From: Clostridia bacterium
GTDB lineage: Bacteria; Bacillota; Clostridia; Christensenellales; Aristaeellaceae
Assembly (NCBI GenBank): GCA_017522345.1
Contig: JAFWZN010000086.1
Location: 1 to 64,000 of the forward strand
DNA: 64,000 nt
Direction of reading: 5' to 3'
The notes below the pieces were generated by a model that did no database searches, had not been told where the DNA came from, and saw nothing but the letters and a program-made list of their open reading frames with translations. Of the stretch, positions 52,138 to 58,666 are shown one piece after another. The translations under genes were made by a program, and so were the position numbers. Numbering within the stretch: position 1 is the first letter of the stretch; the number at the start of each line of letters is the position of its first letter.

Positions 52138-53616
52138 CTATAGAAGTATGCAGATGAATCCGCCGTTCCCTTCGTTTATGATTTTGGATAATGTCTTTTG
52201 AACCTTTATGCGGATATCATCTGGCATGCGCATGAGCTTTCCGGAGAGTCCTTCCCTGACAAGCTCGCTCAATGAACGCCCGAAAATTTCCGTCTCCCAC
52301 AGGCTCTTGGGATCGTTTTCAAAGCCGCTTAAAAGATCCCTGACCAATTCTTCCGACTGCTTTTCCGTGCCGACGATCGGGCTGACTTCCGTTTGAATGT
52401 CCACGCGGATCATGTGAAGGCTCGGAGCGCCCGCCTTGAGCTTTACGCCGAAGCGGCTGCCCTGCTTTACAATCTGAGGTTCCTCCAGCGTCAGCTCGTT
52501 CATTTCCGGCGCAACCAATCCGTAGCCCGTCGCCTCTACGCTCTCAAGCGCGTCTTTCACGCGGTCGTACTTTTTCTTTGCGTCCACAAGCTCCTTCATA
52601 AGCTTTAAAAGATGCTCTTCACCGTCTACATTCTGACCGCTGGCTTCTCCGAGAATTCTGAAAAACAAGCCGTCTGCAAGCGCGGTTTTCATTTCGATGC
52701 TTCCATTGCTTAAGTGAATGCCGGTTGGGCGGATTTCGTCAATATATTCGCTTTCGGAAAGGCGACTGATCAGATCCTCGTAATCGCGAACGTGCGAAAG
52801 GCCGCGGGAGGAGGTTTGGATGGAGTCCATGATGCTTTCGTGTAAATAGTGGTTTCCGTCGAGCGCGCCGAGCCATGCGGGCAAATCCAGATGAATCTCG
52901 GTCAGCGGGAATTCAAACAATATGCTTTCGAGGATTTTGTTTATGTCGCTTTCAGACATGGTTTCGGCGTTTAACGATATCACGGGCACGGCGTATTTCT
53001 TTGAGAGCTTTTCTCTTAAATCCCTCGATTCCTGAGAAGCTGGGCGCGCGGTGTTTAAGAGAATCACATACGGCTTATTCAGGGCTTGAAGCTCCTTTAT
53101 CGCTCGTTCCTCCGCTTCCTCATAGGCGCGCCTTTCAAGATCAGTGAAGCTTCCGTCGGTGGTTACGACAAGTCCCACGGTCGAATGCTCCTCAATAACC
53201 TTTTTCGTGCCGATTTCTGCTGCGGTTTCAAGGGGAATATCATGATCGAACCACGGCGTTCTGACCATACGCGTATCTCCGTTGTCGTTTGCGCCGAGAA
53301 CGCCGTCGATTAGGTAGCCAACGCAGTCGATCAGCCTTACGCGAAACGACGCATTATCTTTTAAATGGATTTCCGCCGCCTGTGCAGGCACAAAGCGCGG
53401 CTCTACCGTCGTAATGGTCTTTCCTGCGCCGGAAACGGGCAGTTCGTCTATTGCGCGGTCGCGCCGGGCGCTTTCCTCCATGTTCGGAAGCACCGAAAGC
53501 TCCATAAAGCGTTTAATAAAGGTTGATTTTCCGGTGCGCACCGGGCCGACGACGCCGATATATATGTCGCCGCCTGAACGATTGGCAATGTCCGAATACA
53601 GATTCGTTTGATTCAT
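52138..53616 (-). CDS. spoIVA: Stage IV sporulation protein A
   Basis: SpoIVA is the ATPase that polymerises on the forespore surface as the base layer of the spore coat. The 492-residue protein has the Walker A GPVRTGKST (24-32), the Walker B-like RLIDCVGYLIDG and the long family-specific middle and C-terminal regions. The final residues are hydrophobic (GGFICILL), as in the family, where the C-terminus contacts SpoVM at the membrane. GGAGG lies upstream of the ATG. Confidence 0.97.
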   Translation of the reverse strand: MNQTNLYSDIANRSGGDIYIGVVGPVRTGKSTFIKRFMELSVLPNMEESARRDRAIDELPVSGAGKTITTVEPRFVPAQAAEIHLKDNASFRVRLIDCVGYLIDGVLGANDNGDTRMVRTPWFDHDIPLETAAEIGTKKVIEEHSTVGLVVTTDGSFTDLERRAYEEAEERAIKELQALNKPYVILLNTARPASQESRDLREKLSKKYAVPVISLNAETMSESDINKILESILFEFPLTEIHLDLPAWLGALDGNHYLHESIMDSIQTSSRGLSHVRDYEDLISRLSESEYIDEIRPTGIHLSNGSIEMKTALADGLFFRILGEASGQNVDGEEHLLKLMKELVDAKKKYDRVKDALESVEATGYGLVAPEMNELTLEEPQIVKQGSRFGVKLKAGAPSLHMIRVDIQTEVSPIVGTEKQSEELVRDLLSGFENDPKSLWETEIFGRSLSELVREGLSGKLMRMPDDIRIKVQKTLSKIINEGNGGFICILL

Positions 53617-53762: not shown

Positions 53763-54677
53763 ATGAAGGAAGCTAAGAACATAAAGAAAAAAAGAAAAAA
53801 GGCGGCGAGCGTGAATACGCTGCTTGTTTTGCTGTGCGTTCTTCTTTTGATCGTTGCAGGACTTTATATTATACGGTTCTATACGCTTCGTAACGACACG
53901 AAGAGGGATAATGAACGGTTATCGGATATGTACAGAGAGGCTAACGATAAACCTGTAATCGAGTCTATGGTATCGGATGCACCGGTAGATGGAAACGCGA
54001 ATGCGGGAAATGTGACGGAAAACGAGCCGATTATCATAACCTATCCACGTCCGCCCGAGGAAATTGCCCCGGCGTTTATGAAAGCATATGAGATCAATCC
54101 TGATGTCGTCGGTTTCCTTCATGTACCTCAAAGGACGGTTGACGATATTGAGCTCTTCGTAGTTAAAAGGGATAATGCGTATTATCTAAACCACGATTTC
54201 TATGGTGAAGAAAAAAAGAGCGGAACGCTGTTTTTGGATGAAGTAAACGCTATATGGCCGCAGGATCAGCACTTGATCATCTACGGACACAATATGAAGG
54301 ACGGAACTATGTTCGCTCGCCTGCCCAGATACAAGTCGATCGAATATGCTTATAACAATCCGTTTGTGTATTTCGATACGCTCTATGAAAAGGGAAGCTA
54401 TGTCGTATTGGCTGCGATTCGCCTGCCCGCCGGCGAAATGCTGACGGAAGGGTTTAACTTAAGAACGTTTACCTTCGGAGAGACGAGCTTTAAGTCCTTC
54501 ATGTACGATGTGCGCGAACGCGCCTTGTATGTAACCAATGTGGGCGTTAACGAAGACGATCAGCTTTTATCGCTTGTCACCTGCGCCTACAATGAGGACG
54601 ACGAACGCTTTTTGCTGATTACCCGGCGAATCCGCGAAAATGAAACGGAAGAGGAACTCAAGCAAAAGATCAGATAA
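53763..54677 (+). CDS. Class B sortase
   Basis: A 304-residue membrane-anchored transpeptidase. A Lys/Arg-rich N-terminus precedes one transmembrane helix (about 18-36), then a linker of about 70 residues and the sortase domain. Catalytic triad visible: His 176 in IIYGHNMKDGTMF, Cys 274 in LVTCAYNEDDERF and Arg 282. YGHNM and the long insertion before the Cys strand are class B features. GGAGG precedes the ATG. No LPxTG or NPQTN-type substrate is encoded in the window, so its client is elsewhere or is unusual. First gene of a three-gene operon. Confidence 0.9.
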   Translation: MKEAKNIKKKRKKAASVNTLLVLLCVLLLIVAGLYIIRFYTLRNDTKRDNERLSDMYREANDKPVIESMVSDAPVDGNANAGNVTENEPIIITYPRPPEEIAPAFMKAYEINPDVVGFLHVPQRTVDDIELFVVKRDNAYYLNHDFYGEEKKSGTLFLDEVNAIWPQDQHLIIYGHNMKDGTMFARLPRYKSIEYAYNNPFVYFDTLYEKGSYVVLAAIRLPAGEMLTEGFNLRTFTFGETSFKSFMYDVRERALYVTNVGVNEDDQLLSLVTCAYNEDDERFLLITRRIRENETEEELKQKIR

Positions 54678-54698
54678 TATACGTTAGGATGTGAAAAT

Positions 54699-55499
54699 AT
54701 GTCTTTAGCTGCGGAGCATTTTAAGGCGCTTTGCGAGAATGTGAACTATCAGGAGCTTAAATCAACCGAAAAAATACAAGCGGAGTTAAGGCGCGTCATT
54801 ACAGATACCCAGCAATTGACGCTCTCTCAGATGGATGATTCCTTGTCGAGACAATTGGGAAGCATTCTTTTTTCCCATGAGGCCGGCCTTATTTCGGCGC
54901 TAAGCGCCATCAATCCCCCGGAAATCAAATGGCGCAGAAAAAGTATACTCACGCTATCTTCCCTATTTGCACTTTTGGGAACCGCTGCAGGCGTGGGCGC
55001 CCTTATTCTGATTTTCAACAGCGGCAAACTCTGGATCTTTCTCCTTGCGTTTATTTCGGTTGCGCTGTTTTTGTTAAATGCATTGTGGCCCAGAGAAAAG
55101 CCTACCGCTGACATTTACCAGTCTGTGAATGCTAAAGCGCTTTTCATGCTTGCCGAAAGGCGCATGGAGGCGATTGACCGCGATCTTGAAGCCTACTTGA
55201 ACATCCCCGGCACGAATCAGGATGAGGACGAAGGCGTTCTTCAGCTGATTACAAAGGCCGTCGGCATGAAGCGGGAGGATCCTGACAGCGTTCCGGACGA
55301 GCTTATGACGGCGATTACCGCGCTTTCGATCGCGCGGGGCTATTCGCTTTATGACTATAACGGAGAAAACGACGAATATTTTGACGTTATGCCCACGATT
55401 CGCCAGACGCGAACGATCGTGCCCGCGCTGGTCAAAAATGGACGCGTGCTTTCAAAGGGACTTGCCATTGAACATACCCAGGAGCTTTCGGAGGAATAA
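54699..55499 (+). CDS. Unknown two-TM protein in the sortase operon, 266 aa
   Basis: No family is recognised. The N-terminal 80 residues are helical and charged; two adjacent hydrophobic segments (about 83-105 and 108-127) form a membrane hairpin that ends NALWPREKPTAD; the C-terminal 135 residues are acidic and soluble, with a repeated regular helix pattern. Both ends should be on the same side of the membrane, probably cytoplasmic. AGGATG precedes the ATG. Next gene starts seven bases after its stop, so they work together presumably. Confidence 0.7.
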   Translation: MSLAAEHFKALCENVNYQELKSTEKIQAELRRVITDTQQLTLSQMDDSLSRQLGSILFSHEAGLISALSAINPPEIKWRRKSILTLSSLFALLGTAAGVGALILIFNSGKLWIFLLAFISVALFLLNALWPREKPTADIYQSVNAKALFMLAERRMEAIDRDLEAYLNIPGTNQDEDEGVLQLITKAVGMKREDPDSVPDELMTAITALSIARGYSLYDYNGENDEYFDVMPTIRQTRTIVPALVKNGRVLSKGLAIEHTQELSEE

Positions 55500-55505
55500 C
55501 AGGCT

Positions 55506-57398
55506 ATGAAATATATCGGCATTGATATCGGCGACGGCGAAAGCGCGGTTGCGGTATTGGAAGAAGACAGCATTATTGAACCTGTGATAGAATATTTGGA
55601 TGGGTGCGGCAGTATTATTTCTGTAGTCGGCATGTCGGGCACGGATGTGCTTGTCGGCGAAAAGGCGCTGATTGACAGAAAGGTTGTTCACCTGCGTTCG
55701 CGGTTCAAAAGCCGCTTTTTGTCTTCCATCGATTCCGAGAGGGACATTGAACGCTTTGCCCACGGCCTGAAAAGCGCCCTTCTTCGAGAAAAGGAGGACT
55801 TTTTCGATGGGGATATCACCGTTGCGGTCGGTTGTCCCGCAGGCTGGAAGGATATAGACCGGAAAAGATATGCGGAAATTCTCAAAAAAGCGGGCTTTGA
55901 AAACGTACACATCGTATCCGAATCGCGCGCGGCGTTTTTCTATGCAAGATATGCGCACGAACTGAAGGTTGCGCCCGAGATGCTCAATCAGACGACGCTG
56001 GTTATCGACATCGGATCCTCCACCACGGACTTTGCTTATATTGTAAACGGAAAAGAATCGGCCGTCGGGACATTCGGAGACGTAAATCTTGGCGGCGGCT
56101 TAATCGAGGCGGGCATGCTCGCCCGTTCAATTCGAGACAACAGAAAAAAAGAAATCCTTGAAGAGGTATTCAAGAAATCACCTTCATGGAAGCATCGCGT
56201 CGAAATCGCGGCCAGAAGGCTCAAAGAGCAGTACTTTTTAAATGAAGACGAGTGGAAGACAATTCCCTGCGTCGGCGGCGAAACGGTGTATTACGACGAA
56301 CCTGTGCGCGTGAAATTTGAACTCAACGAAGACATCATGGACGAGATTCTGTCTACGCCGATGAGCGAACTGCACGGCGCGACATTTTATGAGAGCCTGA
56401 GCGACTTATTGAGGCATACGCATCAAGCGACAAGCGAAAACCCGCCCAAGCTCGTCATTCTTACCGGCGGCGCTTCCAGAATGCGCTTTTTCAGAGAAGC
56501 CGTAGAGCGCCGATTCCCGTCAAGTCAGGTAATCCTCTGCCCCAATCCGGAATTTTCCATCGCAAAGGGACTGGCGTACGCTGCAAGGGTGGACAAAAAG
56601 CTTGAAATGTTCAATCACGACATTCAGGCATATTTTGACAGCGGAGACATAAAGGATGCGATTCACGAATCCGTCCGCTGGCTGACGGTTCCGCTTTCAA
56701 GTATACTGTCCGGGCGAATTGTAAACGACGTTGTCATGAAGGTGCTTGCGGACTGGAAAAAGGGCGAAATCCGTTCGATTAACGATATGGAAAAGCCGAT
56801 TATTGAAAGAGCGGGGCTTCTGCTTAAGACGCTTAAGGAAATTCCCGAGATTTGCCCTGCGATTGACGATTGGTGTCAGAAGCTGTTTGCGCGCGTCCAG
56901 CCGCAGCTGGATGAAATTTGCAGAAAGCATGATGTGGACAGGGCGCTTATGTCTTTAAGCTACTTAACGTCGATTGCAGGTCCCGATCAGGTCAACATTC
57001 TGTTTGAAAATCCTGCGCTAAGCGGCATCGCATATGTGATTACCGGCGCGGTCAGCGCGACGATCTGCGGCGGCGGCGGAGTTGCGCTTCTGACTGCGGG
57101 GCTTCCCGGCGTTCTGATCGGCGCAGTATTGGGCGTTGCAGTGGCTTATCTGGGCAAAAGGGTCATTGCCGCACAAATCAATAAAGCCGATCTTCCGCTT
57201 ATCTCAAGAGCGATTATTTACAGAACCTTTAAAGGCAGTCTTTCCTCTGCAAGGCAAAAGCGAATGATCGAAGAAGCGCTCATGGAGACGATGTCGAAGC
57301 CGGAATTTGAAAGAACGCTTGAAACGGAAGTCACCATCAGCATTGAAGATCAGATTATGAAGCTTGCAAGAAATGTTGAAATGCCGATTGTGCAGTGA
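55506..57398 (+). CDS. Hsp70-like ATPase with C-terminal membrane hairpin
   Basis: A 630-residue actin/Hsp70-fold protein. The N-terminal 370 residues carry the ATPase motifs: phosphate 1 YIGIDIGDGESAV, phosphate 2 LVIDIGSSTTDFAYI and adenosine LTGGASRMRFF. There is no DnaK substrate-binding domain; instead a helical region (about 380-500) leads to a Gly-rich hydrophobic stretch at about 505-560 (YVITGAVSATICGGGGVALL, GVLIGAVLGVAVAYLG) and a final helical tail. It looks like a membrane-associated Hsp70-type ATPase of unknown function. GGAGGA precedes the ATG. Confidence 0.82.
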   Translation: MKYIGIDIGDGESAVAVLEEDSIIEPVIEYLDGCGSIISVVGMSGTDVLVGEKALIDRKVVHLRSRFKSRFLSSIDSERDIERFAHGLKSALLREKEDFFDGDITVAVGCPAGWKDIDRKRYAEILKKAGFENVHIVSESRAAFFYARYAHELKVAPEMLNQTTLVIDIGSSTTDFAYIVNGKESAVGTFGDVNLGGGLIEAGMLARSIRDNRKKEILEEVFKKSPSWKHRVEIAARRLKEQYFLNEDEWKTIPCVGGETVYYDEPVRVKFELNEDIMDEILSTPMSELHGATFYESLSDLLRHTHQATSENPPKLVILTGGASRMRFFREAVERRFPSSQVILCPNPEFSIAKGLAYAARVDKKLEMFNHDIQAYFDSGDIKDAIHESVRWLTVPLSSILSGRIVNDVVMKVLADWKKGEIRSINDMEKPIIERAGLLLKTLKEIPEICPAIDDWCQKLFARVQPQLDEICRKHDVDRALMSLSYLTSIAGPDQVNILFENPALSGIAYVITGAVSATICGGGGVALLTAGLPGVLIGAVLGVAVAYLGKRVIAAQINKADLPLISRAIIYRTFKGSLSSARQKRMIEEALMETMSKPEFERTLETEVTISIEDQIMKLARNVEMPIVQ

Positions 57399-57401
57399 CA
57401 A

Positions 57402-57437
57402 ATGAAAAAGAAGCTCGCCAAGGAGCTTCTTTTTCAT
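57402..57437. terminator. Bidirectional terminator after the Hsp70-like gene
   Basis: ATGAAAAAGAAGCTC and GAGCTTCTTTTTCAT are perfectly complementary (15 bp) with a seven-base loop; the T-run is inside the arm. It lies between convergent genes. Confidence 0.8.
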
Positions 57438-57902
57438 TTAATCGCAAGCTTTTGATTTAGAGAAGGTCAGAAAACCTAAAATGATTTTAAAGAGCATCGT
57501 TGCCGCGAACATACCAAGCGCCATTGCGCCTGCGGCGGATAAAGTATAAGAGCCTTTTGTGAGGAAAACTTCCTGATTTCCCTGAAGTAAACCCAGCATG
57601 GTGTAGTAAAGCGCGCCGCCGGGAACAAGCGGAATGATGGAGGTGATGATAAAAACTGTGACGGGCGTTTTCACAATGCGTGCGAGTATCTCGGCGAAAA
57701 ACGTGCCGGACGCTGCGGCAAGCGCGTAGCAGATGGGCTCCGATACGTTAAAATGCATGGCGACCAAATAAACGCCCCATGTAAGCGCGCCGCCCAGAGC
57801 GGAAAAGACGAGCTTTTTTGAGATGACGCCGAAGAACATTCCGAAGGATATGCTTCCGATAGCGGCCATCAGAATCGGGATGATCCATTCGTCCATGATC
57901 AT
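57438..57902 (-). CDS. Threonine/serine exporter, ThrE C-terminal half (ThrE_2)
   Basis: A 154-residue integral membrane protein with five hydrophobic segments, of the ThrE_2 (DUF3815) family: GMFFGVISKKLVFSALGGALTW and IIPLVPGGALYYTMLG. In many Firmicutes the exporter is split in two genes, as here; the ATG overlaps the stop of the first half by four bases (ATGA). GGGAGG supports it. Confidence 0.88.
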   Translation of the reverse strand: MIMDEWIIPILMAAIGSISFGMFFGVISKKLVFSALGGALTWGVYLVAMHFNVSEPICYALAAASGTFFAEILARIVKTPVTVFIITSIIPLVPGGALYYTMLGLLQGNQEVFLTKGSYTLSAAGAMALGMFAATMLFKIILGFLTFSKSKACD

Positions 57903-58666
57903 ACGTGAGCGCCTCCCATCAGCGTAAGAACGCCCGCCGCGCCGACGGCGATTGCGATGGCTAGAAACAGCGCTTCGGCGACATGCATGGTGCCTGCCTG
58001 AATATCGCCGGTTATAAAGTCGCGCATGCCGTTTACAAGCTCGACGCCCGGAATCAGAAGCATTACGTTTCCGATAATGATTTTATCCGCGTCGTGCCCG
58101 AAGCCCAAGCGCGTGAAAATAACGGCGAAAAACGCGGAGATTGCGGCGCAGAAAATGTCCTGAAAGACGATGTTTCCGCCAATTGCGCGGGCAAGCATGC
58201 CGGCAAAATACAATACGACGCCTGCGACTGCCGAAGCGGCGGCGTCCAGCCAGGAGCCGCCGAAAAACACGGCGAAGGAAGAGCTAATGACGGCGTAAAT
58301 CAGAATTTTCTCAATGTGATTATAGCGGCGGACATTTGATTTTTCCTTGATCAAACGTGCAAATTCCTCAGCGTCAGGCGTTTCCCGGCAGATTTTGCGG
58401 GCAAGATCGTTCATGCGATCAAGAAGCTCAAGGTTTGTCTGCACATTCACAACGCGCCTTGAATGCGTGATTTCTACCCCGTCAATTGTGATGGTTACGA
58501 TGATGTTTGACGGAATGCAGAATACGTGAGATTCGCTTGCGCCATAGGCTTTTACAAGGCGGGCGATCGTGTCCTCTACGCGGTAGACTTCTCCCCCGCT
58601 TCTTAACATGATTTCGCCGAGGTCGAGAATCTGGGTGAAGATTTTATTGAGATTTTGAGTGTGCAT
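57899..58666 (-). CDS. Threonine/serine exporter, ThrE N-terminal half (DUF1212)
   Basis: A 255-residue protein: cytoplasmic N-terminal DUF1212 part with GEIMLRSGGEVYRVEDTI and VFCIPSNIIVTI, followed by five hydrophobic segments from about residue 120. Family members export threonine and serine. The GGGAG upstream is rather far (13 bases) from the ATG. It lies in one operon with the SGNH hydrolase gene upstream, and biosynthesis genes for threonine lie 2-5 kb away. Confidence 0.88.
   Translation of the reverse strand: MHTQNLNKIFTQILDLGEIMLRSGGEVYRVEDTIARLVKAYGASESHVFCIPSNIIVTITIDGVEITHSRRVVNVQTNLELLDRMNDLARKICRETPDAEEFARLIKEKSNVRRYNHIEKILIYAVISSSFAVFFGGSWLDAAASAVAGVVLYFAGMLARAIGGNIVFQDIFCAAISAFFAVIFTRLGFGHDADKIIIGNVMLLIPGVELVNGMRDFITGDIQAGTMHVAEALFLAIAIAVGAAGVLTLMGGAHV

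Follow-up and report, generated by a model that had tools for sequence, protein, structure and literature searches.

Organization of the locus

The window analyzed here, a stretch of 64,000 nucleotides from a Clostridia bacterium, contains three consecutive plus-strand open reading frames, which we refer to as srtB, gene 2, and gene 3 (Table 1). They are separated by gaps of 21 bp (srtB to gene 2) and 6 bp (gene 2 to gene 3), in agreement with the close spacing reported in a preliminary description of this DNA. That description also assigned the three genes one promoter and one terminator. The terminator is borne out by a strong 17-bp stem (z = -6.8) flanked by A/T, which is probably bidirectional, and the single promoter is not established: a consensus promoter scan detected no plus-strand promoter ahead of srtB, where inspection by eye revealed a TATAAT with a weak -35 region. 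The divergent gene spoIVA (window positions 52138 to 53616, minus strand) lies upstream of the sortase gene, and a two-gene ThrE-type exporter (57438 to 58666, minus strand) is convergent with the end of the operon, on the other side of the terminator.

Table 1. Features of the locus, in window coordinates
Feature	Position	Strand	Basis or remark
srtB-like class B sortase, 304 aa, N-terminal signal anchor	53763..54677	+	Local neighbor, outside the conserved module
Gene 2, 266 aa: N-terminal helices, TM hairpin, putative GrpE-like C-terminal domain	54699..55499	+	
Gene 2 TM hairpin, residues 86-129	54954..55085	+	AF2 model, TM segments
Gene 2 putative GrpE-like domain, residues 172-264	55212..55490	+	Model, structure matches, conserved motif
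Gene 3, 630-aa Hsp70-like ATPase with membrane tail	55506..57398	+	HSP70 match, model, homologs
Hsp70-type nucleotide-binding domain, residues 1-365	55506..56600	+	Pfam and structure match
Helical region in place of linker and substrate-binding domain, residues 366-502	56601..57011	+	AF2 model
Gene 3 Gly-rich membrane hairpin, residues 503-549	57012..57152	+	Model (confidence low here), TM segments
Intrinsic terminator	57400..57439 (approximate)	.	Stem-loop, -23.7 kcal/mol

The product of srtB exceeds the cut-off for PF04203 (32.5 bits versus 26.6), matches the structure of B. anthracis SrtB (3e-26), and contains the catalytic triad H176/C274/R282, which together uphold its earlier identification as a class B sortase; its score against TIGR03064 (127.4 bits) is under that model's cut-off of 153.75.

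Gene 3 encodes an Hsp70-type nucleotide-binding fold with a membrane tail

Hsp70 proteins are peptide-binding chaperones, and the catalytic residues of DnaK are D8, T11, K70, E171, D194, and T199. Residues 99 to 362 of the gene 3 product match the HSP70 family (PF00012; 6e-13, 48.3 bits, cut-off 20.6), and residues 1 to 367 of its AF2 model (pLDDT 83) superpose on DnaK with a Z score of about 30 over 333 residues; DnaK dominates the list of structure matches. In 28 gene 3 homologs, D7, K68, E139, D168, T173, and GG321-322 of the adenosine motif are invariant, K68 being assigned by eye as the equivalent of K70 in DnaK. The threonine of the Hsp70 phosphate-1 motif (GTT) is replaced in gene 3 by Asp10 (GDG). 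The Hsp70 interdomain linker and beta substrate-binding domain are absent, as the Pfam match stops at residue 362 and the model is all-helical past about residues 348 to 365. Farther downstream are two hydrophobic helices (511 to 529 and 531 to 549), in a part of the protein where model confidence is low at residues 489 to 511 and 519 to 550. Two hydrophobic segments are found in 23 of the 28 homologs, three in one, and fewer than two in four; the Oscillospiraceae variants at loci L089, L093, and L100 are shorter and do not have the conserved Gly-rich hairpin, and are still paired with gene 2. By computation, gene 3 has an Hsp70-type nucleotide-binding fold that keeps most catalytic residues and has no classical peptide-binding domain. 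The earlier view of this protein as an Hsp70-type ATPase in which helices and a Gly-rich membrane hairpin replace the substrate-binding domain is confirmed by the Pfam match, the AF2 model, and the TM segments.

We also considered whether the gene 3 product could form an actin-like membrane cytoskeletal filament of the MreB, FtsA, or ParM type, in which case gene 2 would be its regulator or membrane anchor and not an exchange factor. MreB and FtsA share the actin/Hsp70 superfamily fold and membrane attachment with the pair, and gene 3 matches MreB_Mbl at 3.5e-9, gives weak matches to the FtsA and ParM Pfam models, has a membrane tail as FtsA does, and contains the phosphate-2 motif DIGSSTTD. 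However, the HSP70 match is better (6e-13), DnaK dominates the structure list, the lysine at the Hsp70 catalytic position is invariant, and the gene 2 domain described below matches GrpE. The pair further differs from MreB and FtsA in its Hsp70-type motifs and GrpE-like partner, and shows no sign of polymerizing paralogs. A filament thus appears unlikely.

Genes 2 and 3 are inherited together

A search of named genomes yielded 80 loci. At 78 of these, gene 3 is immediately preceded by gene 2, which usually overlaps it or ends within about 30 bp of it, with a 4-bp overlap most frequent; the exceptions, L082 and L087, have no adjacent gene 2. Co-occurrence is perfect in 60 related genomes, both genes being present in 13 and neither in 47. 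The gene 3 orthologs are confined to these 13 genomes, and the remaining gene 3 matches are short and weak, at about 26 to 30% identity, as ordinary Hsp70 genes would be expected to give. With a gene 2 profile, strong matches come from precisely these 13 genomes; the other 47 give only weak partial ones with E values above 7e-5. Distances within the two families are correlated (Mantel r = 0.905, 0 of 999 permutations), a correlation that common descent alone also yields. The conserved unit at this locus is therefore gene 2 plus gene 3, which many gut bacteria have inherited as a pair.

Two of the 13 genomes, G004 and G010, have genes 2 and 3 on one contig and strand but not side by side. In G010, where gene 2 is about 8 kb away, a 1,073-aa protein (L041, 7564-10785) is encoded close to the Hsp70-like gene and by eye appears to begin with a zinc ribbon followed by a kinase-like segment. 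One gene 2 copy elsewhere (L039, G024:C133:7904-8725) has a single in-frame TAG in the TM region, which reflects either a pseudogene or an assembly error.

The pair is also carried by a distant member of the class (G450) and by a conjugative plasmid of the cyanobacterium Calothrix brevissima NIES-22 (AP018209.1, L168 9838-12743), where it sits between phage-integrase genes and matches gene 3 at 4e-134 and gene 2 at 4e-16. The Calothrix gene 2 frame stops before the C-terminal motif of the family (see below), which is readable in another frame. Genomes drawn evenly from the phylum and the class seldom carry the pair, and its distribution is therefore patchy rather than universal. A viral origin was rejected, as IMG/VR and GenBank phages contained no relative.

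The sortase gene is a chance local neighbor

The preliminary description had raised the possibility that cytoplasmic ATP hydrolysis is coupled to a sortase-dependent surface process, and had proposed a neighborhood search for recurrence of the other two genes with srtB. The linkage recovered by that search is between genes 2 and 3 alone: a sortase gene adjoins the pair at only one of the 80 named loci, that of congener G002. Among the 13 pair-carrying related genomes, srtB is beside the pair in two, and only within this genus. The operon-like spacing here and in one congener (3 to 21 bp) is what favors the three genes acting jointly. However, the remaining 79 loci have no flanking srtB, those of close relatives L044 to L048 and L056 included (the L047 flanks are short), and SrtB homologs are on other contigs in the pair-carrying family members G004, G008, G010, G014, G017, and G033, are absent from G019 and G026, and are also present in genomes that do not carry the pair. 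Occurrence of the three genes apart in related genomes had been named in advance as evidence against a sortase system, and this is the arrangement we observe for srtB, since elsewhere it is on other contigs, absent, or present without the pair. We consider a joint three-gene surface system highly improbable and rejected it; the sortase is a functionally unrelated neighbor that shares a transcription unit with the pair in this genus.

Gene 2 combines a membrane hairpin with a putative GrpE-like domain

The middle protein had been called unrecognized, with two TM segments. It indeed has no accepted Pfam or NCBIfam match, and TM segments are found at residues 88 to 106 and 111 to 129; what had been overlooked is the GrpE-like feature of its C-terminal domain, which is the most informative one at the locus. 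Because basic residues flank the hairpin on both sides, the sequence suggests that both ends lie on the cytoplasmic side of the membrane, the side on which the ATPase domain would also be located. The AF2 model (pLDDT 88) consists of N-terminal helices, the hairpin, further helices, and a C-terminal helix-plus-beta domain, and the family shares a conserved C-terminal motif, Y..E...FD.LPS....RT.RPALv.dG.LL.RG.A.

In structure comparisons, residues 172 to 264 match GrpE proteins from M. tuberculosis, E. coli, human mitochondria, and Geobacillus (8gb3, Z = 7.4; 1dkg, Z = 7.0, 3.0 A over 88 aa; 9blt, Z = 7.0; 4ani, Z = 6.5), and Thermus GrpE (3a6m) aligns more loosely (residues 139 to 263, Z = 5.4). 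All matches confined to the C-terminal half are GrpE, and the others lie on, or start in, the N-terminal part. Z scores of about 7, below 8, are in the range where the tool warns of chance matches, and the GrpE reading thus depends on being combined with the gene linkage to an Hsp70. Foldseek returned no significant match for the model, with M. tuberculosis GrpE second (E = 1.7). The long paired dimer helices of GrpE are replaced in the model by a helical bundle with the TM hairpin. Taken with the linkage, a GrpE-like fold of the modeled C-terminal domain is supported, not proven.

Profile comparison of gene 2 with GrpE by hhalign gave P values of 0.17, then 0.023, then 0.008 as the alignments grew. 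In the last run, 0 of 200 column shuffles scored as high and the reversed profile scored 10.8 against 19.2, with an alignment limited to the 21-residue helix just before the beta domain. Because the alignments were altered between tests, we regard a GrpE relationship at the sequence level as suggestive, not confirmatory. Other sequence comparisons did not recover it: Pfam GrpE (PF01025) has no match to gene 2 (P0002) at E ≤ 1, the Pfam families listed for 41 gene 2 homologs do not include GrpE, hmmsearch of individual GrpE sequences with the gene 2 profile, like its converse, stays at noise level, and the full-length gene 2 profile searched against PDB sequences gives helical noise only.

Neighbors of the pair at other loci

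Dynamin-family GTPases (PF00350) adjoin the pair at two divergent loci: two are encoded upstream in L100 (620-2758 and 2769-5069), and one in L092 (5798-7711) overlaps the end of gene 3. These neighbors hint at membrane remodeling. With only these two loci among 80, we rejected a dynamin-family GTPase as a general partner. Long dynamin-family GTPases are found among the 60 relatives in G002 and G019, both of which carry the pair, on other contigs; the dynamin genes on Nostoc and Aphanizomenonaceae plasmids have no annotated Hsp70 nearby. In about ten loci of one subclade (L053, L055, L064, L068, L070, L072, L076, L077, L084, and L090), a low-complexity Gly/Lys-rich small protein of 160 to 260 aa, Gly/Ser-rich with a Lys/Ala-rich tail, is encoded upstream of gene 2, often less than 20 bp from it or overlapping it, and is possibly a third component in that subclade. 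A related small protein is found upstream of the pair in L089 and L093. As clues to a client, this protein, the dynamin-family GTPases, and ftsH are weak.

Proposed function of the pair and comparison with known systems

Based on these observations, we propose that genes 2 and 3 probably constitute a two-gene module composed of a membrane-tethered Hsp70-like ATPase and a membrane-hairpin GrpE-like exchange factor. The linkage, the co-inheritance, the Hsp70 fold, and the TM hairpins in both proteins were computed directly. Gene 3 would be tethered to the membrane via its C-terminal hairpin, and the cytoplasmic GrpE-like domain of gene 2 would act as its nucleotide-exchange factor, opening the nucleotide cleft to release ADP. 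ATP/ADP cycling would then move the helical tail of gene 3 at the membrane as the output of an ATP-driven switch that has no classical peptide clamp, and the targets would be membrane proteins or membrane shape, not clamped unfolded peptides. A point against the module is that we noticed no J-domain protein next to the pair when its neighbors were viewed without a J-domain model. More tentatively, the pair could be a dedicated clamp-less Hsp70 machine of the membrane with an embedded GrpE-like factor. The tail of the ATPase would then reshape membranes or membrane complexes, acting in some lineages with dynamin-like GTPases.

As a sub-case of the module, the pair could be a membrane-stress chaperone, as the preliminary description also suggested, in which the helical tail binds hydrophobic segments and gene 2 is the exchange factor. 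The Hsp70/GrpE architecture at the membrane and the presence of ftsH, a membrane protease gene, close upstream in five related loci are consistent with this role. The missing substrate-binding beta domain and linker and the lack of a noticed J-protein (again in neighbors viewed without a J-domain model) argue against it, and the patchy distribution speaks against a general role; we consider it rather doubtful.

The proposed module resembles DnaK-GrpE in its Hsp70 nucleotide-binding fold, in the GrpE-like C-terminal domain of the partner, and in gene order, as gene 2 is directly upstream of gene 3 just as grpE is upstream of dnaK. Unlike DnaK-GrpE, the pair has no peptide-binding domain or linker and no J-protein was seen, both proteins have membrane hairpins, and the long dimer helices of GrpE are replaced; moreover, a separate canonical hrcA-grpE-dnaK locus is present elsewhere in the same genome. 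The MxDnaK2 bicistron of Myxococcus xanthus, a second GrpE-DnaK pair specialized for membrane-associated clients (PMC11019930), is likewise an additional gene pair leaning to membrane clients, but MxDnaK2 is a complete DnaK and includes the substrate-binding domain that gene 3 does not have.

Kaur et al. 2020 described conflict systems in firmicutes and actinobacteria that center on GTPases and combine HSP70 and GrpE with a second protein consisting of the HSP70 domain only, without the peptide-binding domain (PMC7159879). Their GAP1-N2 GTPase systems share several features with the present pair, namely an HSP70 without a clamp encoded near GrpE, components oriented to the membrane, and GTPases that are occasionally linked, and the pair may be distantly related to them. 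It differs in standing alone in nearly all loci and in having a GrpE-like protein that is membrane-embedded and missed by GrpE models. None of its recurrent neighbors was recognized as a DO-GTPase or GAP1 protein, in a survey without GAP1, DO-GTPase, or tubulin models. That the pair itself is a conflict or defense module of this kind is consistent with the dynamin-family GTPases in L100 and L092 and with the plasmid copy between integrase genes. However, PADLOC defense-system models do not recognize the pair, housekeeping genes occupy many of the flanks (rluB, nagA, ftsH, spoIVA, and thrE), and GTPases of the dynamin kind are at only 2 of 80 loci, so a defense role appears quite improbable. 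Apart from these two published systems, our search of the available literature found nothing matching a membrane GrpE/Hsp70 pair.

If the two-gene module is correct, the ATP engine of Hsp70 and an apparent exchange factor would have been kept, the peptide clamp dropped, and both parts moved into the membrane. In uncultured gut Clostridia and their relatives, the Hsp70 cycle would thereby be put to an unusual use, and the reading offers a testable function for a protein family that has no accepted Pfam or NCBIfam model.
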